IMG/VR virus record: IMGVR_UViG_3300025151_000390
Location: 1-20,503 of that record
DNA: 20,503 nucleotides
Reading direction: 5' to 3' (one strand)
Origin: a virus
Part shown: one piece after another, positions 7,266 to 19,795 of the stretch
How positions within the stretch are numbered: position 1 is the first letter of the stretch
Layout of the letters: every line of letters starts with the position of its first letter
Translations under genes and position numbers: made by a program
The notes under the pieces: generated by a model
Seen by the model: the letters and a program-made list of their open reading frames with translations, nothing else
Databases searched by the model: none
What the model was told of the DNA's origin: nothing

Positions 7266-7340
7266 GTGATTGCATATAAGACCTCAGATGGCATTAGGAT
7301 CGCCCTTTCTAAGGATAACGATTGCTTCCAAACGAGATAA
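7266..7340 (+). CDS. Possible 24-residue peptide with GTG start in capsid leader
   Basis: A GTG-initiated frame encodes VIAYKTSDGIRIALSKDNDC followed by FQTR and a TAA. The sequence is protein-like, with few Lys codons made of A-runs and a charge pattern typical of small soluble proteins. It coincides with the less A+T-rich part of the leader. No ribosome binding site precedes the GTG, and no ATG is available. It competes with the RNA-structure reading of the same bases; either, both or neither may be real. It could also be the remnant of a longer gene. Confidence 0.2.
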   Translation: MIAYKTSDGIRIALSKDNDCFQTR

Positions 7341-7366
7341 TCTTTTTACATATAAACAAATAACTC

Positions 7367-7373
7367 AAAGGAG
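7367..7373 (+). promoter_or_regulatory. Strong ribosome binding site of the major capsid gene
   Basis: AAAGGAG lies five bases before the capsid ATG and is the best Shine-Dalgarno match in the window. Most neighbouring genes lack one and rely on stop/start overlaps, so this site fits the need for hundreds of capsid copies per virion. Confidence 0.8.
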
Positions 7374-7378
7374 ATAAA

Positions 7379-8224
7379 ATGAGTGCAACTATAACCAATG
7401 CTTTTATTACTCAGTTTGAAGCTGAAGTACATATGGCATATCAAAGAATGGGTAGTAAGCTCAAGAACTTAGTCCGAGTAGTTAATGGTGTATCAGGTGA
7501 ATCTGTTAAGTTCCAAAAAGTAGGAACAGGTGAAGCAACAACTAAAGCTAGACACGCTGAGGTTGTAGCGATGAACATTTCACACACAAATGTAACAGCA
7601 ACACTTGCTGACTTTTATGCATCAGACTATGTCGATAAGTTAGATGAGCTAAAAACTAACATTGACGAAAGATCAGTTATTGCAAACAACGCAGCTTATG
7701 CTCTTGGTCGTAAAACTGACAGTATATTAACAGATGCTATGGCTTCTGCTACAACACTAGCAAACAATGCTGGTGCTCAAGGTGGAACAGTAGCAACAGA
7801 CATGAACGTAGATAAGTTCCAAGAAATGCAAGCCTTATTTGGTACAAATGATGTGCCAGATGATGGTCAGCGTTACTGGGCTATTGGGCCAAACCAATGG
7901 TCAAACTTATTAGATGACGATCAATGGTCAAGAATGGAATACATTGGTTCTAACGAACTACCTTTTAGTGGTATGAACTATACAGCTAAGAAGTTCTTAG
8001 GATTCTTAGTATTCGTACATTCTGGACTAGACACATCTGGTTCAACAGACAGACACACAATCGCATGGCACAAATCATCAATGGGTCTAGGCGTTGGCTC
8101 TGAAGTAAGAACAGAAGTAAACTACATTCCTGAGAAGGTAGCTCACTTAATGACTTCTTACTTATCAATGGGTTCAATTCTAATCGATACCAATGGTATT
8201 AGAGTGCAGAAGTGTGCAGAGTAG
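7379..8224 (+). CDS. Major capsid protein
   Basis: The 281-residue protein forms the icosahedral shell. It begins MSATITNAFITQFEAEVHMA and continues with GVSGESVKFQKVGTGEAT and ATLADFYASDYVDKLDELKT. Later come DRHTIAWHKSSMGLGVGSEV and a C-terminal strand, GSILIDTNGIRVQKC. This set of motifs fits a phage capsid family with an HK97-type fold found in marine podoviruses, rather than a close copy of T7 gp10, which is longer (about 345 residues). It follows the scaffold and has the strongest ribosome binding site in the window. Codons are less A-ending and more C-ending (AAC, TTC, GAC) than in the accessory genes, as expected for a highly expressed gene. No frameshifted longer form was evident. 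Confidence 0.9.
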   Translation: MSATITNAFITQFEAEVHMAYQRMGSKLKNLVRVVNGVSGESVKFQKVGTGEATTKARHAEVVAMNISHTNVTATLADFYASDYVDKLDELKTNIDERSVIANNAAYALGRKTDSILTDAMASATTLANNAGAQGGTVATDMNVDKFQEMQALFGTNDVPDDGQRYWAIGPNQWSNLLDDDQWSRMEYIGSNELPFSGMNYTAKKFLGFLVFVHSGLDTSGSTDRHTIAWHKSSMGLGVGSEVRTEVNYIPEKVAHLMTSYLSMGSILIDTNGIRVQKCAE

Positions 8225-8233
8225 GAGTAAATA

Positions 8234-8482
8234 ATGGCATACGCAACTTCAAATCCTGTAAAAAAAATCTCTCAAATGGGAGATACTAACTCGCTATGGT
8301 ACTACTCTGACGGAGATGCTATAGGAACTATTGATGATGCAGATTACTTTCTAGCTTCAACAGCAGACTTAACAGCTGGTGATGTTATTATAGTAAATAG
8401 TGGTGGATCAAATGGTGTTGTTGATATCTTAATTGTATCAGCTGCAACATCCTCTACAGTAACAACTGCATTATTATCATAA
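8234..8482 (+). CDS. Small beta-rich protein next to capsid; possible capsid decoration or minor head protein
   Basis: The 82-residue product begins MAYATSNPVKKISQMGDTNS and contains DADYFLASTADLTAGDVIIV and a Val/Ser/Thr-rich C-terminus (VSAATSSTVTTALL). Alternating hydrophobic residues and turns suggest an all-beta domain. The pattern D-x-x-YF-x-x-x-x-x-x-L-x-x-GD-x-I-x-V followed by VTSAT-like strands recurs in small proteins placed after capsid genes of tailed phages. AGGAG at 8223-8227 is six bases before the ATG, so it should be well expressed. Decoration of the capsid surface is a reasonable inference from place and expression, not from a recognised fold. It is followed by a strong GC hairpin. 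Confidence 0.75.
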   Translation: MAYATSNPVKKISQMGDTNSLWYYSDGDAIGTIDDADYFLASTADLTAGDVIIVNSGGSNGVVDILIVSAATSSTVTTALLS

Positions 8483-8488
8483 TGATAT

Positions 8489-8509
8489 TGGGGGGTTTTA
8501 TACCCCCCA
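8489..8509 (+). terminator. G6/C6 hairpin after capsid block (terminator-like, without T-run)
   Basis: A run of six G (8490-8495), a TTTTATA loop (8496-8502) and six C (8503-8508), extended by a flanking T-A pair, form a very stable stem just after the capsid-associated gene. No T-run follows on either strand, so it is not a classical intrinsic terminator. It may pause polymerase or protect the 3' end of the capsid mRNA. In T7 a terminator (T-phi) sits at the equivalent place after gene 10. Confidence 0.55.
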
Positions 8510-8528
8510 CTAATGTAAAGGATTAATT

Positions 8529-9431
8529 ATGGCAATAACAGTAGCAGCAAGAGCATTAGCAAAAAAATTACTTAAAAATAAAAAGCTAAAAAAAGCAATA
8601 AATGTAACTACAGAACAAACAAATAAATTAAAAAATGCAGCTAAATCAGGTGCAGCAAAAGTATCTGGAGCTAGTGCAGCTAGTGCAGCAGCTGGAGCAA
8701 AAACACTTGCTAAAAAAACAGTTTCTAAAGGAAAAGACTTAGGTAAAAAAGCAGTTAAGAAAACTGTAGAAGGTGCAAAAAAAGCATCAACAGTTACAGC
8801 TGGAGCAGCAACAGGAGCTGCTGTTGGAGCTGCAAAAAAAGCTGGTAGTGCAATATCTGCTAGAGTACCAGCTGGAGTAAAAGAAGCAGCTAGAAAAGCT
8901 GGAGTAAAAACAAAAGATTTAGGAAATAAAATTAGGTCAGATGTAGACATAGGAGCTACAATAGCTGGTAGAAAAGCAAAAGCTGGTATGGCTGGTGCAA
9001 TAGGAGTAGGTAAAAAAGCAGCTGAAGCTGGTAAAAAGTTTGCAAAAAAAGATCCATTTGTTGCTGGTATGGCAGCACAAGGAGCTATAGATATTCCATT
9101 AACTGTAGGAGCTGTAGCATTAACTGCATCTATGGTTAAATCGTCTACACCAAAAGAATCAGAATATGATATTAAAAGAATGAGTGATGGAAGATTTAGC
9201 ACAACATTTAAAGATGCAAATGCTAATGCTGTTTTTTCAGATAAACAATTATCATCAAAAGAAACAGATCAAGTAAGAAGTTATCTTGCAGTATTAGACA
9301 GTATTATTCTTTCAGATGATCCAAGAAAAAGAAAAAATGAGTTTTTAGCAACATTACAGGTTTTAAAAGATCAATATGGCATATCAAACATTAGTGGTAA
9401 AAATTTATCAATAATGTTACCACAAGGATAA
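8529..9431 (+). CDS. Histone H1-like Lys/Ala-rich protein with hydrophobic segment, probable virion protein
   Basis: The 300-residue protein has three parts. Residues 1-174 are an Ala/Lys/Gly-rich region with repeated AKKA, GKKA and KKAG units, resembling eukaryotic or bacterial histone H1-like tails. Residues 176-203 are uncharged and hydrophobic (PFVAGMAAQGAIDIPLTVGA and onward) and could span or enter a membrane. Residues 205-300 are a soluble, mixed-charge domain with SDGRFSTTFKDANANAVFSD. AAAGGA at 8517-8522 is six bases before the ATG. The gene lies between the capsid block and tail tube A. I do not know a named family with this layout. DNA condensation in the head, or delivery with DNA through the host envelope, are both possible and unproven. 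Confidence 0.8.
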   Translation: MAITVAARALAKKLLKNKKLKKAINVTTEQTNKLKNAAKSGAAKVSGASAASAAAGAKTLAKKTVSKGKDLGKKAVKKTVEGAKKASTVTAGAATGAAVGAAKKAGSAISARVPAGVKEAARKAGVKTKDLGNKIRSDVDIGATIAGRKAKAGMAGAIGVGKKAAEAGKKFAKKDPFVAGMAAQGAIDIPLTVGAVALTASMVKSSTPKESEYDIKRMSDGRFSTTFKDANANAVFSDKQLSSKETDQVRSYLAVLDSIILSDDPRKRKNEFLATLQVLKDQYGISNISGKNLSIMLPQG

Positions 9432-10040
9432 ATGGCAGTAACTAAAGTAGATATTGCATCAAGAGCTTTGGTGATGGTAGGAGCTAATCCTATTTCATCA
9501 TTTACAGACAATTCTACAGAAGCATTAATTACAAACACTCTTTATGAAGAAGTAGTTGAATCTACATTATCAGAATGTTCATGGCGTTTTGCTATGGGCC
9601 AAAAACAATTATCATTACTAGCTGATGCTCCAACATCAAGATATGAATATGCATATCAGATGCCAGCAAATCCAGCTGTAATAACTATAGTTGCTGTAAC
9701 AAATAACGATCATCCAATACCTTATTCAAGATATGAAGATAAGATTTATTTAAATGGTTATGGTTCTAGTAGTAAAGTTTATATGGACTATGTATTTAGA
9801 CAGGATGAATCTTTGTTTCCAACCTATTTTAGACTAGCTTTAATTTATAGATTAGCTAGTGCATTTGGTGGATCATTGGGTAGAGATGCAGCTATGATTA
9901 ATTCATACGAAACTAAAGCTGAAAGACAAATGATTAAAGCAAGAAATATTGCATCACAAGAAACTACAAGCAAAAAACTAAATACTACTAGATTCATAGC
10001 TGAAAGAAGGAGCAGTCGAAGTGGACTTGTTGATTACTAA
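9432..10040 (+). CDS. Tail tubular protein A (T7 gp11-like adaptor)
   Basis: The 202-residue protein is close in length to T7 gp11 (about 196). Characteristic motifs are KVDIASRALVMVGANPISSF at the N-terminus, LYEEVVESTLSECSWRFAMG, YEYAYQMPANP and YFRLALIYRLASAFGGSL. It is expected to form a 12-fold ring beneath the portal that joins head to tail nozzle. It starts directly after the previous stop (TAAATG) and ends in a TAATG overlap with tail tube B, so the two are probably translated in step. Its C-terminal tail is Arg/Ser-rich. Confidence 0.92.
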   Translation: MAVTKVDIASRALVMVGANPISSFTDNSTEALITNTLYEEVVESTLSECSWRFAMGQKQLSLLADAPTSRYEYAYQMPANPAVITIVAVTNNDHPIPYSRYEDKIYLNGYGSSSKVYMDYVFRQDESLFPTYFRLALIYRLASAFGGSLGRDAAMINSYETKAERQMIKARNIASQETTSKKLNTTRFIAERRSSRSGLVDY

Positions 10041-12256
10041 TGCCCAGAAAAGTCAGACAAGTATTTACCAACTTTTCAGCTGGAGAGCTTAATCCTCTAC
10101 TAAACGCTAGAACAGACGCTAAAGCATATTTTGAAGGTGCTAGACAATGTAAGAACTGGTATCTTTTAGATGAAGGTGGTGTTATGCGTAGACCAGCAAC
10201 ACAGTTTACAGCAGAGCTACCAGCAGAAGCTAGAATTATTCCTTTCATATTTGCAGAAGATGAAGTAGCTGTATTTGCTTTATCTAATAATAGACTAGAT
10301 GTTTATAACTCTAGTGGTACTGCAATACAAAGCAACATTACTACAAACTGTAACTGGACTACAGCTCAGTTATTTGAACTAAGCTATGCTCAGTTTGCTG
10401 ATACAGTATTTATTTGTCATAGAAGTAATCCTATTGTTCAAATCAAAAGAACAGCCGCATCTACTTTCTCAGTTAGTTTATATGCGTTTGAAGAAGATGA
10501 TAGTGTTACTGTAGGTGGTGTAAATAAAACATTACAACCATTTTACAAATATGCAGATGCTACTGTTACTGTAACATTATCTGCTCATGCTACTGGCACA
10601 GGCAGAACACTAACTGCTAGTGCTAATGCTTTTAGCTCTAGCTATGTAAATACATATTTAACAGTTAATGGAAAACAAGTTTTTGTAACTGGATACACAA
10701 GTGCTACTGAAGTTACTGTTACTGTATTAGAAGATACAGTTACTGTTGGCCCTCATGCTGATTGGCAAGAACAACTTATATCTACTACTAGAGGATTTCC
10801 TCAAGCAGTAACATTACATGATAATAGACTTTGGTTTGGTGGTGTAAGAGATAATCCTTCGGTTATTATTGCATCTGAAATAGGTGGGTATTTTAGTTTT
10901 GATTTAGGTACAGGATTAGCTAATGAAGCTATCAATGTAAATATTACTGCCGATACGGTAAACGAAGTAAGACATTTAATATCTGGTAGAAACTTGCAAA
11001 TATTTACAGATTCAGGTGAGTATTATATTCCTCAAAGTAATGATAGTGCTATTACACCATCTACTATAGCCTTTCTTAGACAAACACCTTATGGATGTAA
11101 TAGAGCAAAGCCAACTCCTTTTGATGGTGCTACTATCTTTACATCTAAAAATGGCAAATCAATTCGTGAGTATGTTTTTTCTGATTTAGAACAAGCATAC
11201 AAATCTAACAGTATATCTGTATTATCTAGTCAGGTTATTGACAATCCAAAACAAATTACAATGATGACTGGTAATGAAGAAAGACCTGAACAGTTTGCAT
11301 ATTTTTTAAATAGTGGAACTAATTTAGATGGAAAAATAGCTGTGTTTCACAGTATTAGAGATGAAAAAATAGCTGGTTGGACTATTTGGAATACTAAAAC
11401 AAATGATAAGTTTCACAGTATTACATCTATTAATGAATTTTTATTTGTAGTTACAAAAAGAATATTACCATCAGGAACTAAGTATTTGTTAGAAAAATTT
11501 AGTAATGATGATTCTATAACTGTAGATTGTAGTACAACAACTACAGTATTTCAAAAAGGAACACCTTTAGTCAAAGGCGGTAGTCAATCTGGAACCACTC
11601 TAGTTATTGATGGAATTACTACTGCGCCATCAATACTTGAAACATTTACAATAGCTGGAAATGCAACTGAATATGCAATCCAAGCTGTAACACAGTTAGG
11701 TACTAATGAATATAGATTACAGTTAGATAAAACACTAGCAGCAACTCCATCAGATAATGCTGCAATTACAATAGTAAAAGGTTTTATTCATACTGTTAAT
11801 AGCATTTATGAACCAACTAATGTTGTAGAAGCTGTGTTTGGAAATGGTGCGTTGGGTTCTTATACAATAGATAGTAATAATAGAATTACTTTGGATAATG
11901 CACCACAAATTACTGGCGTTAGAGTAGGATACAATTTTACGCCTGTATTAGAAACAATGCCTATTGATAAAGAAATAGATACTGGCCCATTGACAGGACA
12001 GCCAAGAAGGATTAATAAAGCTATAATAGATATTTCTGGGGGTTTAGATGTAACTATGAAAGCTGCTGATTTAACTTCTAAAGAACTAATAATACAACAA
12101 GCCGATTTTACTATAGGTGATGATTTATCAGCTTCTGCTGGTAAAAAAGAATTTACATTTTTGGGATATAGTAAATCACCGACAATAACAATATCGCAAG
12201 ATAGCCCACTACCATTAAAGGTATTGGGTTTAGCTATGGAGATACAATTCGCATGA
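10040..12256 (+). CDS. Tail tubular protein B (T7 gp12-like nozzle)
   Basis: The 738-residue protein is similar in size to T7 gp12 (about 794). The N-terminus shows the classic nozzle pattern: FTNFSAGELNPLLNARTDAK, then YFEGARQCKNWYLLDEGGVM and RRPATQF. Around residues 250-300 the motifs GFPQAVTLHDNRLWFGGVRD and GYFSFDLGTG are typical of the family. RNLQIFTDSGEYYI and GAGG-poor beta-rich stretches follow. A Gly/Thr-rich small beta region lies at about 513-580. It is expected to form the six-fold tail tube that DNA passes through and to anchor the fibres. Its final bases overlap the next start (ATGA). Confidence 0.92.
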   Translation: MPRKVRQVFTNFSAGELNPLLNARTDAKAYFEGARQCKNWYLLDEGGVMRRPATQFTAELPAEARIIPFIFAEDEVAVFALSNNRLDVYNSSGTAIQSNITTNCNWTTAQLFELSYAQFADTVFICHRSNPIVQIKRTAASTFSVSLYAFEEDDSVTVGGVNKTLQPFYKYADATVTVTLSAHATGTGRTLTASANAFSSSYVNTYLTVNGKQVFVTGYTSATEVTVTVLEDTVTVGPHADWQEQLISTTRGFPQAVTLHDNRLWFGGVRDNPSVIIASEIGGYFSFDLGTGLANEAINVNITADTVNEVRHLISGRNLQIFTDSGEYYIPQSNDSAITPSTIAFLRQTPYGCNRAKPTPFDGATIFTSKNGKSIREYVFSDLEQAYKSNSISVLSSQVIDNPKQITMMTGNEERPEQFAYFLNSGTNLDGKIAVFHSIRDEKIAGWTIWNTKTNDKFHSITSINEFLFVVTKRILPSGTKYLLEKFSNDDSITVDCSTTTTVFQKGTPLVKGGSQSGTTLVIDGITTAPSILETFTIAGNATEYAIQAVTQLGTNEYRLQLDKTLAATPSDNAAITIVKGFIHTVNSIYEPTNVVEAVFGNGALGSYTIDSNNRITLDNAPQITGVRVGYNFTPVLETMPIDKEIDTGPLTGQPRRINKAIIDISGGLDVTMKAADLTSKELIIQQADFTIGDDLSASAGKKEFTFLGYSKSPTITISQDSPLPLKVLGLAMEIQFA

Positions 12257-12702
12257 GTGCTAATGCTGCAACTTTAATGTTAATCTCAGCTGGTGTAACA
12301 GCTGTAGGTACAATATCTTCTATGAGATCACAACAAGCTGCTCTCAATAGAGAAAATTATAGATTAGAAACAGAATCAAAAATGGCTGCACTAGCAGCTG
12401 CACAAGAAGAAAATGCTAGAAGGCAATATGCTGAAAAAGAAAAAGCAAATAACTTAGCTTATCAATCTATTGCTGGTTATGCAGATGATAGTATGTCATT
12501 CTTAAATATGAATAAACAAATTGTAGAAAACAGAAACAAAGACATTTCTGATATTAGACTAATGGGAAAATCTGTTGATTTAAAATATAGACAAATGGCT
12601 TTTGAAAATCAAGCTAGAATGGAAGCAGTAACTTTCGGTGGTTATACTTCTGTAATAGCTGGGTTAGTCAATGGTTATGGAAATTATAAATATTACAGCT
12701 AA
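12253..12702 (+). CDS. Internal virion protein, T7 gp14-like (ejectosome)
   Basis: The 149-residue protein has a hydrophobic N-terminal segment (about 4-24, AATLMLISAGVTAVGTISSM). It is followed by an Ala/Glu-rich helical stretch with QQAALNRENYRLETESKMAA, and it has a second hydrophobic region near the C-terminus (VTFGGYTSVIAGLVNGYGNY). The arrangement and the position just after tail tube B are those of gp14-like proteins, which in T7 form the outer-membrane part of the ejection channel. T7 gp14 is somewhat longer (about 196). The start is an ATGA overlap with the previous stop, and the stop is a TAATG overlap with the next gene. Confidence 0.82.
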   Translation: MSANAATLMLISAGVTAVGTISSMRSQQAALNRENYRLETESKMAALAAAQEENARRQYAEKEKANNLAYQSIAGYADDSMSFLNMNKQIVENRNKDISDIRLMGKSVDLKYRQMAFENQARMEAVTFGGYTSVIAGLVNGYGNYKYYS

Positions 12703-14876
12703 TGGCATTAACATCAGGAGATAGAAAAAGCAAAGCTACAGTCAGCTCTATACAGAGCAGAATGGGTGTAGTAGATTCATATTCAGGCAAAGATGCTTTG
12801 GGATTAGCAGCTGAAGGTGCATCTGCTGTATTAGATATTTTTGCAGAAAGAGAAGCTAATAAAGAAGAAGTAGCTTGGAAAACAGATTTTAAATTAAAAA
12901 CAAGAAATACATTAACTAATTATGCAAGAGAATATTATGATGATCCAGATGCATTTACTAATTCTGTAAATTCTTATAGAGATTCATTAGTAAATAGTAC
13001 ACCTACTAGATTTAAAAATTACGCAAAAGAATATATAGGAAATCTTGCATTTGAGTATGGAGATAAAATATGGCAAGAAGCTAAAAATCAAAAAGACCTT
13101 TTAATATTAGATAATTATTTAACTAACCATACTGATTTTATAGCAAATAGAAATCAAGCTATTATGGGTTTAACTGTAGATGAAATGCAATCATATTGGA
13201 CAGAACAATTATTACCTGAAATGTCAGATGCTATGGCTGATTATACTAAGTTATATAACTCCTATCCAGCTGCTATACAGCAACAATTAGCAGATCAATA
13301 TGGTACTCCTGATAGTGTAGATGCAGATGGTAATCTAGTTAAAGGAACATTTAATCAAACATTAGCAATAGGATTTGAAACACAAAGATTAATTAGTTTA
13401 GCTAAACAACAATTAGATCTAGCACAAGCACAAGATACAGCATTTATGCAACAAATGGGTGGAATACCAGAAAATTACATTACAGAAGTAGAAAAAGTTA
13501 ATAAAGCATTAGCTAAATATGGATTAGATTATATAGATAATCCTTTATTTGATGTAGATGATTCTAGTGTTTATAAAAATACAAACAGAGAAGAAAGAGC
13601 AGCAATATCATCAAGTGTTGGTAGCTATATAGAAACATGGAATAAAGCTAATGAAAAGAATGTAAAGAAACAAGAAGTATTAATAGAGCAAAATAAAATA
13701 GATGTTGTAGCAAATACAAAAGCTGCAATTATGGATGGTGATGTTTTTGCAGAAGATAGATTAAGAGTAATAGCTACAGAAAATGGTTTAGATTTAGATC
13801 AATTAAATGATTTGATGCAAGAAAATGCAAAAATGATGGCTATTCAGGATGTAAGTAGTCAAATTACTTATTTTGATAGTGGCAAAATTATAACAACAAT
13901 GTCTCAATTTGAGGTTAATACCATGATTCATGATAGAGTAAGAACTATAAATAATAGATTTGGTGAAGGAACTATAACAGTAGATGAATTAAAAGATGAA
14001 GCTATGATGCAACAAATGTATGAGTTGGTAAGCATTGAGTTTGAAGGTATGAGTAGAACTGTTTTTAACAATATGCCTATGTCTGCTGTAAATGAAAATG
14101 GTTTATTAAGTAATAATTTATTTTTAACATCCTTATTAGAACTATCAAAAACATATGGAGCAGTTCCAGATAAACTAGAAAATTATTTTGCTAGTGCTGG
14201 TACATTTAATTTTGAACAACCTAATGATAGGCAAGAACTTAGAAATATGGCTGAGTTTGCAAATAATTTAAGTTTAACTAAAGGAATAGCACCAGCATTT
14301 AGTAATGATGAAGCAAATTATTTATTTCCTCATTTATTAAGATTACACAAAGAGTTTGAAAGAATGGGAAGATTAGATGCAGAATTAGCTAATAGAACTG
14401 AACAAGAAATAAATGATATATTAGGCAAAAATACTATTGGTGAATATGAAGCATTAGTTGTAGAAAAATGGATTAGTGAAGTATACCCAGATCAAACACT
14501 TATGGATGAAAAAATACAATATTTAAATAAAGTTATTGTAGATAATGATGTAGATATAAATGAAATTATGTATGACTTTTTTAAAGATAGAGAAGAAGAT
14601 GGGCCTTGGTGGGGTTTGTTTTTTACAGATCAAGATTTATTAACTGGTAATGTAGAAGTTAATTTATTTGGAGATGATAGAGATTTAGAGCCATCTTTTA
14701 ATTTAGTATTGCAAGAAGCAAAAGAAATGTTTGATGTAAGAGTAGCGAGTTTATTTGGCAACACTAGTTATAAAGCAACTATGACACCAAAAGCTATTAA
14801 AGAAGCATTAAAAGAACAGTTACCTTATATTCTAAATACATTAAGAAGTGCTGGTTATGGATATAGTGAGAATTAA
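12702..14876 (+). CDS. Internal virion protein, T7 gp15-like (ejectosome core)
   Basis: The 724-residue protein is close to T7 gp15 in length (about 747) and in place. It is almost entirely alpha-helical by composition: Ala, Glu, Leu and Lys rich, with no membrane segment or signal peptide. It begins MALTSGDRKSKATVSSIQSR, with GLAAEGASAVLDIFAEREAN soon after, a common opening in such internal proteins. Later parts such as NNLSLTKGIAPAFSNDEANY are unremarkable. In T7 this protein forms the periplasmic tunnel with gp16. Overall similarity to gp15 is inferred from gene order, length and composition rather than a sharp motif. Both ends are TAATG overlaps. Confidence 0.8.
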   Translation: MALTSGDRKSKATVSSIQSRMGVVDSYSGKDALGLAAEGASAVLDIFAEREANKEEVAWKTDFKLKTRNTLTNYAREYYDDPDAFTNSVNSYRDSLVNSTPTRFKNYAKEYIGNLAFEYGDKIWQEAKNQKDLLILDNYLTNHTDFIANRNQAIMGLTVDEMQSYWTEQLLPEMSDAMADYTKLYNSYPAAIQQQLADQYGTPDSVDADGNLVKGTFNQTLAIGFETQRLISLAKQQLDLAQAQDTAFMQQMGGIPENYITEVEKVNKALAKYGLDYIDNPLFDVDDSSVYKNTNREERAAISSSVGSYIETWNKANEKNVKKQEVLIEQNKIDVVANTKAAIMDGDVFAEDRLRVIATENGLDLDQLNDLMQENAKMMAIQDVSSQITYFDSGKIITTMSQFEVNTMIHDRVRTINNRFGEGTITVDELKDEAMMQQMYELVSIEFEGMSRTVFNNMPMSAVNENGLLSNNLFLTSLLELSKTYGAVPDKLENYFASAGTFNFEQPNDRQELRNMAEFANNLSLTKGIAPAFSNDEANYLFPHLLRLHKEFERMGRLDAELANRTEQEINDILGKNTIGEYEALVVEKWISEVYPDQTLMDEKIQYLNKVIVDNDVDINEIMYDFFKDREEDGPWWGLFFTDQDLLTGNVEVNLFGDDRDLEPSFNLVLQEAKEMFDVRVASLFGNTSYKATMTPKAIKEALKEQLPYILNTLRSAGYGYSEN

Positions 14877-16426
14877 TGCCTAAAGAATTAGTTAAATATC
14901 CTATGTTTAAAACCTATATGGAAAAAGGTTTATCTCAAGATCAAATTAAAACAGATGCTGTGATGACTATTATTAATAGAGGTCTAGGATTAAATGATGG
15001 TGAAAGAGCTGCATTAGGTTTGAGTTCAGATTTTTTTACAGCTGAAAATATACTAGGTTTAATGGACAATAAAAGAATTAGATTTGATTATGATCCAGCT
15101 AGTATTGGTGATCCAACATATAGAATATCAATAGATACAGATGGTAATGGAATATTTATGGCATTAAATAATCCTAATGATCCAGATTCAGGATTTAAAC
15201 CTGAGGCAAATCCAGAACTAGCTTCTTCTTTAACATTACAAGGTGTAAGAGCTGATTTTCAAAATCAAGCATGGCAAAATTGGAAAAGTCAAAATATTAA
15301 AGCAGATGCTTTTTTTAAAACATACGGTTTCCTAAATATTGAAGAACAACCATTAGTTATGCAAACACTTAAAGGTATGTTTAATTTAGTTTATAACGGA
15401 TACAATAAAGGAAAAAATGGTGTAGAAGATTTAACCAGAATGTTTAATGACATTGAATGGTTACCAGATGTTAAAATACCTGATTTAAAAACTGTTGAAA
15501 GACAATTACAAGAAAATCAGATTCAATATTTAACATATCAAAAACAAAAAGAAGCTGGAGTCTTTGACGATTCTTTTGCTTCTCAATTCGAAGGTAAGGA
15601 GAAAACAGCTATGGGATATCAAAACACAGCAACAAATTTATTAATGGATACAATTACTAGACAAGAAGGTGGTTTCTATGCTCAGGCATATGATTCTGGT
15701 TTTACAGGAGATAGAAACAAAACATTTAATGTTGGTACTAGAGGTGGTGGTGGTGGCCCAGTAGAAATGGCTGCTGAAGGAAGTAAAATACAAAAAGCAG
15801 AATATGATCTTATGATGTCAGAAAATGGTGATCCTACTATTGGTACTGGGTTATCATTAAAAGATCCAACTGTTATAAGTCAATTAACAGAACTTGGTTA
15901 TGATGTTGATAAATTATTAACTGGTGAACAAACAATTACTAGAGAAGATAACAATATTGTTATGATGAAAATGATTGAAGATAAATTTGAGCTAGTAGAA
16001 AGACTAACTGGAATAAAAGACTTAGATACAAATAAAAATGCATACTTAGCAGTAGCATTAGTTAAATTAGCTTATAATAGTGCTACATGGATTGGGCCAA
16101 GATTTAGAGAAGCATTAAATAATTTTATAGAAACTGGAGATATGAAATACATAGGAAACTTTGGTAGCTATAAAGAAGGAACAGATGAATTTTACTCAGG
16201 TGCAACTGCTGCTGAAATAAAACAATATGAACCAGCATTATTAAATGAGTTATGGAATGATGCAGAAGGTCAAGCTGCAATAGGATATGGTGGCTTTAGA
16301 ACTATGATGAGAGATGTTTCAGAATTTATAACTGCATGGTCGGAAGGTCAAATGACATACTTTGCTGATTTACAAATTACAACATCACCACAAATTAAAA
16401 AGAAATCAAAATCAATATTAGACTAA
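14876..16426 (+). CDS. Virion-associated protein with T4-type lysozyme (GH24-like) domain
   Basis: The 516-residue protein has an N-terminal region (1-250) of unknown type and a C-terminal lysozyme-like domain (about 255-495). TRQEGG carries Glu264, AYDSG carries Asp273, and TIGTG carries Thr321. These match the Glu11, Asp20 and Thr26 active-site order of T4 lysozyme, with the same Glu-to-Asp distance of nine. Between Asp273 and Thr321 lies an extra loop of about 42 residues containing GTRGGGGGP. LTGEQTITRE and VKLAYNSATWIGPRFREALN fit the helical lobe. It would cut peptidoglycan glycan strands. There is no signal peptide, and it sits between the gp15-like and gp16-like genes, so it is probably carried in the virion to help DNA entry rather than to lyse the cell. 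Confidence 0.82.
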   Translation: MPKELVKYPMFKTYMEKGLSQDQIKTDAVMTIINRGLGLNDGERAALGLSSDFFTAENILGLMDNKRIRFDYDPASIGDPTYRISIDTDGNGIFMALNNPNDPDSGFKPEANPELASSLTLQGVRADFQNQAWQNWKSQNIKADAFFKTYGFLNIEEQPLVMQTLKGMFNLVYNGYNKGKNGVEDLTRMFNDIEWLPDVKIPDLKTVERQLQENQIQYLTYQKQKEAGVFDDSFASQFEGKEKTAMGYQNTATNLLMDTITRQEGGFYAQAYDSGFTGDRNKTFNVGTRGGGGGPVEMAAEGSKIQKAEYDLMMSENGDPTIGTGLSLKDPTVISQLTELGYDVDKLLTGEQTITREDNNIVMMKMIEDKFELVERLTGIKDLDTNKNAYLAVALVKLAYNSATWIGPRFREALNNFIETGDMKYIGNFGSYKEGTDEFYSGATAAEIKQYEPALLNELWNDAEGQAAIGYGGFRTMMRDVSEFITAWSEGQMTYFADLQITTSPQIKKKSKSILD

Positions 16427-19400
16427 ATGGGTGAGTTTTCTACATTAGGTGATATAAGTCAGTTAAAACCTAATATATCTGGTAGACCTGATCCAACACA
16501 GCCATTAAATTATTTTCAAGGTTTAAGAGATGTAGGTGCTGGTTGGGCAGATGAAAACATATTTGGACTAGCCTTTAAATACATTGTAGATGCTTCTGTA
16601 GCTCAAGATGATACAGAATTTGTTACTGATAAAAATTATAATATATTTGCAGATAGACAGGTAAAAGGTCTTGAACCTTATATTGGTAATTTTTTACACA
16701 GTAAAAGTCAAAAACACACAACAAAATTAATTAAAGATTTTATAGAAGATAGTAAAAAAGCAAATGGATCACCATCCTATATTGTAGGTAGGGTGCTAGG
16801 TGGTTTAACTGATCCATCTAGTTTATTTTTATTTACAAAAGCTGGTAGTTTTATGTTTAGTGGAAGTAGACTGCTTAGATCAGGTAAAGTAGGTAGTTTA
16901 ATAACTACAGAAGAAATGGCTAAACAAGGTTTAAGTGATACAAGAACATGGGAAGAAACAGCTTTAATATCAGCTAGTGGTTTTATTCTTCCAGCATTAT
17001 TTCCAGCAATTAATAATAAAATAGCTGGTAAACAGTTTGACGATACTGCTAATAAATTAGATAACATGGATACTCATTATTCTAATAGTCAGTATGTAGG
17101 TGGTGGTATTTATAAAGAAGGTTCTGTAGGTGCTGCTGCAACACAACCAATTAGAACAGAAACAGAATGGATTAAAGCAAATCAAATACAACCTACTGGT
17201 ATGGGATACTTAGGAGAAAAGTCAGGCTTTACTCCTTTGTTTAGAGTATTAGAAAAAGGTGGTTTAGAAGAACAAGATTTTATTACTAAGGTATTAGAAA
17301 ATCCATTACTAACTAGAGGTAATTTTGAAGGTATACCTTCAGCTCCTACTATTGAAAGAAAGATTAAATCAAGACATTTCATTATTAAAATTAGTGATGA
17401 TGCAGTCATGGGTGAATACAATGCATATTTAAAAAGACTAGGTAAAAATGAACAAGGATTTCTTGAAAAAACAGTAAACATTAAATTAGGTACAGGTTTA
17501 GATAAAACTGGAATAATGACACCTAGAGAGTTTTCTTCAGCTGTTACTAGAGCTAGATTAAATCCAGATGCTCCAGCAATACCTGAAGTAAAAGCAGCTG
17601 CAAAACATACACAAGATTTATTTTATGGCCCATTAGGTAAAGAATATCAAGAAAGTGGTATTTCTGAAGCATGGCATAAATATCAAATTGGTAGACTTGA
17701 TATGTTTATAAAACAAATGGATGGTAGTATTAAAGGTAGAAAAGCAGTTACTAATCCTAAAAAAGTACAAAAATTACAAGACCTAATTGTTTTAAGAAAA
17801 AAGTTAAAAGCTAAATTAAAGTTAATGCAAACTAAAGGTATTCATCTTAGAAAAAACTATATTAATCCATTATATAGACGAGATGCTATTGATGCTAATC
17901 CAGAGTTATTTAAACAAATAATGAGAGAAGAATTAGAAAAATTAGCTGCAAAAAATCCAGCATTATTAAAACAAAGCCCTAATATGACTGATGCTCAATA
18001 TGAAAAATGGGTAGGGGGATTGGCAAATGCTCCAGATATTATTGATGATATTATAGAATCATTTATGCAGTATCAGCCTACTCTTAGACTTAGACAAATT
18101 GATGATGTACTTAATGAAATACCAGAAGAAGCATTAGGAGAAGTTAATAAAATATCTAGTAGATTTTTAGGTAGAGATTTAGATATAGATTATACAAGAT
18201 TAATGAAAGAAGGATTTATGGAAGATGACATAATGCTTCTACAAAGACATTATTTTAATCAAGTAGTTCCTGATATAGAACTTACAAAAGTATTTGGTGA
18301 TCCTATGGGATATGGTACTCGTTGGTCAGCTGATAGTAGCTACTCACAAGGTTTAATGCAAATTGCTGATGAAATGTTAAGAAAAACTAAAAGGTACGAT
18401 ATGTATTATAATCAAAGATTTGATGAAAATGCTTTACCATTAGGTGCTTTTCTTACAAAACAACAAATAAAAAACCTTAAAGATTTAGATGCTTCTATAC
18501 ATTTAGTTAGAGGTACATATGGTTTGCCATATGATCCTAATAGAACTTTTAGTAGAGGTTTGAGAATGATGAAATTATACAATGCTACTACAATGCTTAC
18601 AGGTATAGCACAAGTAGTAGACACAGCTAGATTGGTTATGATTAATGGATTAACTAAAACATTTAAAATACAAACTGAAATGTTCCAGAGTGGTATGGCT
18701 AAAGAAATAATAAAAATGTCTAAAAACTCTACACAACTAGGTGGTGAGGCATTAGACATGATAGATAGCTCAAGAGCTATGGGTATGTATGGATTAGAAG
18801 ATGCTTTCGGTGTCTTTAATAAAATGGAAAGAGGTATGAGTAAAGTAGGTAATGTTTACTTTACATTCCTAAATGCAAGTAATCCTTGGAATGCTTCTGT
18901 AAAAACTATGGCTGGATTTTTTAATGGTACAAGAATAATAGAAAATGCAGAAAAAATAGCATTAGGCAAACCTATTTCTAAATTAAATAGAGCTAGAATG
19001 AACTTCTTAGGCATTACAGATGAGATTGCTAAAGAAATATATAAACAATATCAAAAACATGGTGTTGGTAAAAATGGTAAAATATCTAGTAAAACAGATG
19101 GTAATGACTTTAAATATATGCGTGTAGCTAATAGTGATGCTTGGGATGATACCCCTAAAGCTAAAGAAGCTGCTGAAATATATCATCAAGGATTATCTAA
19201 ACAAGTTAATGTAGATATAGTTACTCCAAGTAAAGGTGATGTACCATTATGGGCTAATACAGAAATGGGTGGTGCTATATCACAGTTTAAGAAATTTGGT
19301 GCAGCGGCTACACAAAGAATGTTAATGCGTGGATTACAAGAAAAAGATACTAACTTTATGCAAGGTATATTGCTACTAATGGCTGGTGGCATGATGGTAG

Positions 19401-19795
19401 ATGCCTTTAGACAAAAACAGTTTGGTAGAGATTATGGTAAGAAACCATTTGGTCAAAAGCTAGTAGATGGATTTGATAGATCAGGATTAGGTGGTATTTT
19501 TTCTGATATTAACAATGCTATAGAAAGACTAGGTAATAATCAAATTGGTCTAAGACCATTACTAGGGGGTAAGAAACCATACGGTACTTACAAAGATATA
19601 TTGAACAATCCTATACCTGATGTATTAGGCCCTACAGCTAGTCAAATAGCTAATATATCAGATATTATGTGGACATGGGGTACAGGTAAATACAACCATC
19701 ATACGGCTCGTAATGTGCGTAGACTAGTACCATTCCAGAATGTATGGTTTTTGGATTCGTTGTTCGATAAATTAGAGAAAGATGTATTAAGATAA
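16427..19795 (+). CDS. Large internal virion protein, T7 gp16-like, without transglycosylase domain
   Basis: This 1122-residue protein is the largest in the window and occupies the place of T7 gp16 (about 1318 residues), the inner-membrane part of the ejection channel. Several hydrophobic stretches are visible: GRVLGGLTDPSSLFLFTKAG and ALISASGFILPALFPA near residues 120-200, MLTGIAQVVDTARLVMINGL near 720-745 and MQGILLLMAGGMMVDAF near 978-995. The C-terminus (RNVRRLVPFQNVWFLDSLFD) is typical of large ejection proteins in podoviruses. No lytic transglycosylase motif is seen at its N-terminus, in contrast to T7; a separate lysozyme gene directly upstream may do this job. It starts directly after the previous stop (TAAATG). 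Confidence 0.85.
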   Translation: MGEFSTLGDISQLKPNISGRPDPTQPLNYFQGLRDVGAGWADENIFGLAFKYIVDASVAQDDTEFVTDKNYNIFADRQVKGLEPYIGNFLHSKSQKHTTKLIKDFIEDSKKANGSPSYIVGRVLGGLTDPSSLFLFTKAGSFMFSGSRLLRSGKVGSLITTEEMAKQGLSDTRTWEETALISASGFILPALFPAINNKIAGKQFDDTANKLDNMDTHYSNSQYVGGGIYKEGSVGAAATQPIRTETEWIKANQIQPTGMGYLGEKSGFTPLFRVLEKGGLEEQDFITKVLENPLLTRGNFEGIPSAPTIERKIKSRHFIIKISDDAVMGEYNAYLKRLGKNEQGFLEKTVNIKLGTGLDKTGIMTPREFSSAVTRARLNPDAPAIPEVKAAAKHTQDLFYGPLGKEYQESGISEAWHKYQIGRLDMFIKQMDGSIKGRKAVTNPKKVQKLQDLIVLRKKLKAKLKLMQTKGIHLRKNYINPLYRRDAIDANPELFKQIMREELEKLAAKNPALLKQSPNMTDAQYEKWVGGLANAPDIIDDIIESFMQYQPTLRLRQIDDVLNEIPEEALGEVNKISSRFLGRDLDIDYTRLMKEGFMEDDIMLLQRHYFNQVVPDIELTKVFGDPMGYGTRWSADSSYSQGLMQIADEMLRKTKRYDMYYNQRFDENALPLGAFLTKQQIKNLKDLDASIHLVRGTYGLPYDPNRTFSRGLRMMKLYNATTMLTGIAQVVDTARLVMINGLTKTFKIQTEMFQSGMAKEIIKMSKNSTQLGGEALDMIDSSRAMGMYGLEDAFGVFNKMERGMSKVGNVYFTFLNASNPWNASVKTMAGFFNGTRIIENAEKIALGKPISKLNRARMNFLGITDEIAKEIYKQYQKHGVGKNGKISSKTDGNDFKYMRVANSDAWDDTPKAKEAAEIYHQGLSKQVNVDIVTPSKGDVPLWANTEMGGAISQFKKFGAAATQRMLMRGLQEKDTNFMQGILLLMAGGMMVDAFRQKQFGRDYGKKPFGQKLVDGFDRSGLGGIFSDINNAIERLGNNQIGLRPLLGGKKPYGTYKDILNNPIPDVLGPTASQIANISDIMWTWGTGKYNHHTARNVRRLVPFQNVWFLDSLFDKLEKDVLR

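Follow-up and report, generated by a model that had tools for sequence, protein, structure and literature searches.

An optional and hypervariable gene for a Lys/Ala-rich protein in the virion gene block of a T7-type podovirus

The window analysed here is a 20.5-kb virus record of an uncultured marine phage with a GC content of 33%, and its genes are arranged as in a T7-type podovirus. Terminase, portal, scaffold (assigned by position), capsid, an 82-aa ORF, the Lys/Ala-rich protein gene that concerns us, tail adaptor and tail tube B follow one another, and behind them come a weakly gp14-like ORF (12253-12699), a 724-aa ORF that is gp15-like by position, a 516-aa ORF, a gp16-like ORF (16427-19792) and the fibre. 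The immediate neighbours of the gene all lie on the + strand: the major capsid protein (7379-8224; Pfam PF19821 Phage_capsid_2, 1.3e-70; PHROG 3437, major head protein), the 82-aa ORF 3' of it (8234-8482; PHROG 18004, 8.7e-10), which is kept in relatives with and without the Lys/Ala-rich gene, and the tail-adaptor or tail tubular A-like gene (9432-10040; PHROG 394, 2e-36), which begins immediately past the stop codon of the Lys/Ala-rich gene. Of the isolates, Pelagibacter phage EXVC031P Hodr comes closest in its capsid (56% identity), so that the host of the window phage is likely to be SAR11. Two small, strongly basic ORFs lie 5' of the terminase (898-1143 and 1146-1385); they match PHROG 14910 (unknown) and Pfam DUF6321, and Hodr has similar basic ORFs.

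The gene itself occupies 8529 to 9431 on the + strand, from ATG through the stop codon, with a coding part (8529-9428) of 300 residues; it is defined by its ORF, by 69 distinct family members at the same place and by dN/dS, and codon-level conservation identifies + as the coding strand. A ribosome binding site, AAAGGA, can be read at 8517-8522 (+ strand), and relatives carry AAGGA/GGAG-type sites 5' of the gene. An earlier, sequence-only reading of this DNA had described such an ORF with its own ribosome binding site, set inside the virion gene block between capsid and tail genes and encoding a basic region followed by a hydrophobic stretch and a folded C-terminal domain, and all of this is borne out. 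It had also described residues 1-174 as built from AKKA, GKKA and KKAG units; of this the Lys/Ala-rich composition stands and the repeat array does not. The region contains 45 Ala and 37 Lys (K+A 47%, net charge +34), and its units are weak, with 4 [AG]KK[AG] tetrads observed against 1.1 expected in shuffles (p ~0.02) and only short, degenerate tandem stretches; it is a Lys/Ala-rich region of the disordered type, and the impression of repeats is compositional. Over the whole protein K+A is 35%, versus 12-23% in nearly all other coding sequences of the window, the nearest being an 82-aa ORF at 898 (37%) and an 80-aa ORF at 1146 (28%). A genome biased towards AT could have more Lys through the codon AAA; the same bias would not raise Ala or Gly. 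Antisense to the gene runs an open frame of 230 aa (8510-9202, - strand), most likely a by-product of the gene's codon use (GC3 0.06, the lowest in the window).

Several parts can be told apart in the protein, all encoded on the + strand. A conserved basic N-terminal module (residues 1-36; 8529-8636) is recognised by invariant columns, by its dN/dS and by AlphaFold2 helices, which are of low model confidence (pLDDT 48-56). An exchangeable, Lys/Ala/Gly-rich middle cassette (about residues 47-203; 8668-9138) is delimited by identity profiles and by blastn alignments that break at 8667-8702 and resume at 9099-9138; it is predicted to be disordered (pLDDT 30-40). At its end lies a hydrophobic, predicted transmembrane segment (residues 185-203; 9081-9137; Kyte-Doolittle mean 1.59); of 51 family members inspected, most have a segment that passes the threshold and some have none. 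The region before this segment is strongly positive and that after it approximately neutral. GxxxGxxxG motifs are strongly enriched in the family, at 90 where shuffles give 11.9 +/- 3.7, and in many alleles there are two stretches that are both hydrophobic and rich in glycine. These stretches and the glycine zippers point to membrane insertion, and the protein probably inserts into a membrane. An amphipathic N-terminus resembling an antimicrobial peptide was also considered and rejected, as the moment of the window protein is not above that of shuffled sequences; N-terminal moments exceeded shuffles only in L102 and, marginally, in L107 (relatives are given by L numbers where they must be told apart).

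The folded C-terminal domain (residues 208-300; 9150-9428, + strand) is defined by its AlphaFold2 model and its dN/dS. Modelled with 41 homologs, the last 100 residues gave a pLDDT of 89 and a pTM of 0.79, in the order beta-beta-beta-alpha-alpha-beta-beta. Foldseek searches of this model against PDB and BFVD returned zero matches at E<=0.001. A relation of the domain to YegP/DUF1508, a duplicated beta-beta-beta-alpha domain, is unproven: a profile similarity spans about 42 residues (E=0.001), with neither a structural match nor a Pfam DUF1508 hit. A hit to the HP0242 knotted family at 2e-6 was set aside because it came from a tandem chimera, in which one weak match was counted twice; the native HP0242 profile matches only at E=0.02, and there is no structure match. 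A fold search with the full-length model was discarded, that model being of low confidence. The domain of the window protein would yield the tryptic peptides DANANAVFSDK, SYLAVLDSIILSDDPR and NEFLATLQVLK.

Judged from these comparisons, the Lys/Ala-rich protein belongs to an undescribed family. In IMG/VR the family comprises 140 ORFs at 138 loci (some overlapping on the same contig) and 69 distinct proteins, and every member with a visible flank has the capsid gene or the 82-aa ORF upstream and/or the tail adaptor downstream. No convincing match was found in Pfam, PHROGs, NCBIfam or PDB families; the PHROG internal virion proteins (T7 gp14/gp15/gp16) gave unrelated best hits at E ~0.03 or worse. 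Two peptide-pattern scans of 84,980 bacterial and archaeal species genomes found no relative, nor did tblastn of four divergent members against 50,697 phage records. The earlier reading knew of no standard T7-like counterpart at this position, and this agrees with the isolates: Hodr and Methylophilales phage MEP301 have capsid, small ORF and tail adaptor with nothing between, and HTVC010P has an unrelated acidic protein at the corresponding position. Variations on the locus were also seen. One genome (L033, 7425-9251) carries two tandem family members with differing N-termini and C-domain types; in two others an extra 67-aa basic ORF lies between the family gene and the tail adaptor (L083, 8071-8274; L078, 4937-5140); and L114 and L130, which are without the family gene, have other small ORFs at the same site.

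A GC-rich, terminator/attenuator-like hairpin (TGGGGGGT-TTTAT-ACCCCCCA; 8489-8509, + strand) lies 3' of the 82-aa ORF and just 5' of the gene, and is upheld by the spacers of relatives. Perfect stems in 54 distinct spacers have a minimum of 6 and a median of 8 pairs (shuffled median 4), and with 26 different 5' arms the differing arms still pair. The hairpin is kept in relatives with and without the gene, and T-runs follow it in some gene-less relatives. T7 has a terminator after gene 10, and by analogy we read the hairpin as a leaky terminator, which would put the gene in a lower-output tail/ejection unit.

Optional as well as hypervariable, the gene is present in 40 and absent from 34 of the 74 contigs gathered through the similarity of their capsids, and on the capsid tree this distribution takes 7 changes by parsimony, at least 4 of them forced by well-supported branches. 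Clean insertion or deletion is seen between otherwise collinear phages (L074 vs L075, L099 vs L038); in the former pair the genomes are collinear at about 93% up to the gene start, and the alignment resumes at the tail adaptor. A compensating gene elsewhere was rejected: the C-domain was not found in the whole available records of 13 contigs scored as absent and of two isolates. Three gene-less relatives (L076, L081, L101) have a longer, divergent gp14-like protein after tail tube B (206-220 aa vs about 150), and in these proteins a basic arm plus C-domain was not found.

Where the gene is present, its middle changes between phages that are otherwise nearly the same. Among capsid-recruited loci, not collapsed by the Lys/Ala-rich protein, 30 of the 43 pairs that both carry the gene and have capsid DNA at least 99% identical have an unrelated middle (<65% identity), and 5 further pairs at this capsid identity differ in the presence of the gene. 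A single 97% capsid cluster of 16 contigs includes 1 gene-less phage and 8 middle alleles (1 a truncated ORF). The window and L007 are 97-100% identical over 7270-8620, 32-65% in the middle and 99-100% from 9220, remaining high to 12.67 kb; L004 and L057 match at 98.8% over 4.3 kb and at 97.4% over 8.3 kb, on either side of a gap of about 445 bp within the gene. Against the window, L007, L013, L020 and L012 all break past codon ~46-58. Some exchanges involve the middle alone and others the middle together with the C-domain, between near-identical phages. Conversely, the window middle is 88-92% identical to those of L001, L002 and L004 despite capsid DNA identity of 82-83%. These alignments indicate that cassettes pass from one lineage to another, for which recombination at the conserved ends is the simplest route. 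Many pairs break at the same points and in frame, and independent metagenomes repeat the pairing of a given allele with a given backbone (L009/L010/L016/L017); an assembly chimera is therefore an unlikely cause of the pattern, though for one single contig it is possible.

A second hypervariable block was noted between the window and L007 at 12700-15600 (mostly 53-90% identity, with an upstream flank at 96-99%); it takes in the gp15-like gene (724 aa) and runs into the beginning of the 516-aa gene. Linkage of the alleles of the Lys/Ala-rich gene with the gp15-like protein was considered (partial Mantel r 0.37, p 0.0005, n=21) and set aside: the gene varies independently, differing alleles accompanying near-identical or similar gp15 in four pairs (L004/L021, L034/L053, L063/L071, L107/L110).

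Selection differs along the protein. Within allele types pairwise dN/dS, a rough measure at these few sites, is mostly 0.2-0.5 for the N-terminus and 0.06-0.25 in most comparisons of the C-domain; on the same rough footing the hydrophobic segment often gives low values, and the middle gives about 0.75-1.3. Purifying selection acts on the ends, the hydrophobic segment and the C-domain. Ahead of the hydrophobic segment, each of the 51 members examined carries between about +0.12 and +0.21 net charges per residue, and the middle retains charge, not sequence.

An accessory internal protein fits best with a gene that is dispensable, late, placed in the virion block and polycationic, with a membrane-type segment, conserved ends and an exchanged body. 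We therefore tentatively propose an accessory late protein that probably travels in the virion and, in the manner of T4 internal proteins, would pass at infection into the envelope or cell, with a DNA-binding arm and a membrane anchor. It would be a dispensable, fast-diversifying accessory protein of a marine podovirus clade, made late together with the tail/ejection module. As internal cargo it would be guided into the particle by its conserved N-terminus, and there the polycationic, disordered middle may hold it on DNA; once ejected, it would be anchored in the cytoplasmic membrane by the hydrophobic segment, and the C-terminal domain could then act by blocking a host defence or a competitor. 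Some points weigh against the proposal: no virion proteomics was found, the cultured-phage records searched contain no relative, the N-terminal module occurs on no second cargo in these contigs, and the N-terminus of the window protein is no more amphipathic than shuffled sequences. Nor was a prohead protease seen among the window genes, so that a cleaved signal is not expected. A bolder form of this proposal, which we hold to be doubtful, is a cassette-swapped, injected counter-defence or anti-competitor system of SAR11-type podoviruses, in which the ends, serving delivery and anchoring, stay constant while the polycationic/membrane middle is interchangeable and the C-domains fall into types. 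If it were true, each allele would be matched to a different host defence, and a strategy like that of the T4 internal proteins would operate in common ocean phages through a new fold.

The strongest rival, in itself unlikely, is a late membrane protein that is not packaged and acts in the producing cell, for example in superinfection exclusion or interference with competing phages. Its basic N-terminus would be cytoplasmic, the hydrophobic segment would anchor it and the C-domain would be periplasmic, as the charge asymmetry and the glycine zippers would allow; allele swapping would reflect phage-phage competition, and the hypervariability, with presence, absence and allele diversity among near-identical phages, could arise in this way. 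However, the gene is always in the virion block and never elsewhere in the 138 loci, whereas exclusion genes often lie in other parts of a genome and are switched on early, and some members are without a hydrophobic segment above threshold.

The sequence-only reading had called the protein histone H1-like and proposed that it could compact packaged DNA. The basic composition resembling an H1 tail stands and is kept across the 51 members, but membership of a histone family was rejected: neither linker histone PF00538 nor Hc1 PF07432 matched at E<=1 in the window protein and 14 homologs, and the winged-helix globular domain of eukaryotic H1 is absent, the sole confident fold being the beta3-alpha2-beta2 domain without a PDB match. 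A DNA-condensing packaging aid, whose disordered Lys/Ala arm neutralises packaged or host DNA, is improbable. Such an arm would explain why the sequence of the middle is free, since only composition would matter, as in H1 tails; the middle has no confident structure in AlphaFold2, and one jumbo-phage lineage encodes an H1-like PF07432 protein (PMC12619734). Compaction as the main function is nevertheless weakened, because the gene is optional and cleanly gained or lost (many relatives with nearly the same capsid package their DNA without it), because it follows the terminator-like hairpin after the capsid unit, which suggests lower output, and because phages that are almost identical differ by exchange of its middle. 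With a bare H1-like compactor the arm is accounted for and the rest is not: the sharing of discrete middle alleles by distant phages, the membrane-type segment and the constrained C-domain are left over. The further suggestion that the protein travels with the DNA into the cell is possible and forms part of the reading that we prefer. Taken together, the protein resembles a rapidly changing accessory protein, perhaps an injected one, more than it does a true histone, and the gene's hypervariability is of greater interest than the histone label.

Quite improbable, finally, is a minor head-tail junction part or extra ejection (core) protein needed in the lineages with the gene: the gene adjoins the tail adaptor and its N-terminal module tracks tail-adaptor and tail-tube similarity (Spearman 0.81/0.68) better than the middle or C-domain do, but L004 and L021 share capsid, tail tube, gp14-like and gp15-like proteins at 98-99% with middles at 33% and C-domains at 45%, sister phages lack the gene with no replacement at the site, and gp14-like and gp16-like core proteins are already encoded.

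If the accessory, virion-carried protein is the right reading, a single small gene would concentrate much of the selection between closely related strains of common marine phages, and would offer a place to seek injected proteins that act in anti-defence or competition. The phages concerned infect a host group, probably SAR11, in which such genetics is almost unknown. Even with another function, this is an undescribed family with no cultured-phage member among the records searched, and its domain, though predicted with confidence, has no structural match. That alignments so often break at the gene may also partly explain the contig fragmentation of these phages.

Among known systems, histone H1 tails, Chlamydia Hc1 and phage H1-like proteins share with the Lys/Ala-rich protein a basic arm of the disordered type in which composition is kept and sequence is not, but it differs from H1 and Hc1 in having no profile match to them, a hydrophobic segment and an unrelated folded C-domain. 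The T7 ejection proteins gp14/gp15/gp16 are alike in lying in the same late virion gene block, with delivery at infection proposed for the Lys/Ala-rich protein; they differ in showing no homology, and gp14-like and gp16-like genes are encoded besides it. T4 internal proteins are basic and late. Those of the T-even phages are non-essential and share an N-terminal signal for packaging; after injection they act as inhibitors of host restriction enzymes, which vary, each protein being specific for one enzyme variant (PMC12373910). The family resembles T4 IPI, IPII and IPIII (Tequatrovirus ip loci), which are non-essential and variable between related phages with a conserved N-terminal signal (PMC12373910), in being absent from close relatives and in joining a conserved N-terminus to an exchanged body. 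It differs in the absence of a sequence relation, in its hydrophobic, glycine-zipper segment and in a C-domain kept family-wide, and its packaging is one that we infer. The T4 signal is common to several cargos, whereas for the N-terminal module a single gene family was seen, an N-terminal HMM across these contigs hitting family members and no second cargo protein. Hypervariable regions are described in HTVC010P-type pelagiphages (PMC10504331) and as metaviromic islands (PMC3909814); those are reported from internal virion/ribonuclease and lectin/tail regions, as against an accessory gene between capsid and tail here, and they share with it variability at the population level within marine phage virion genes.
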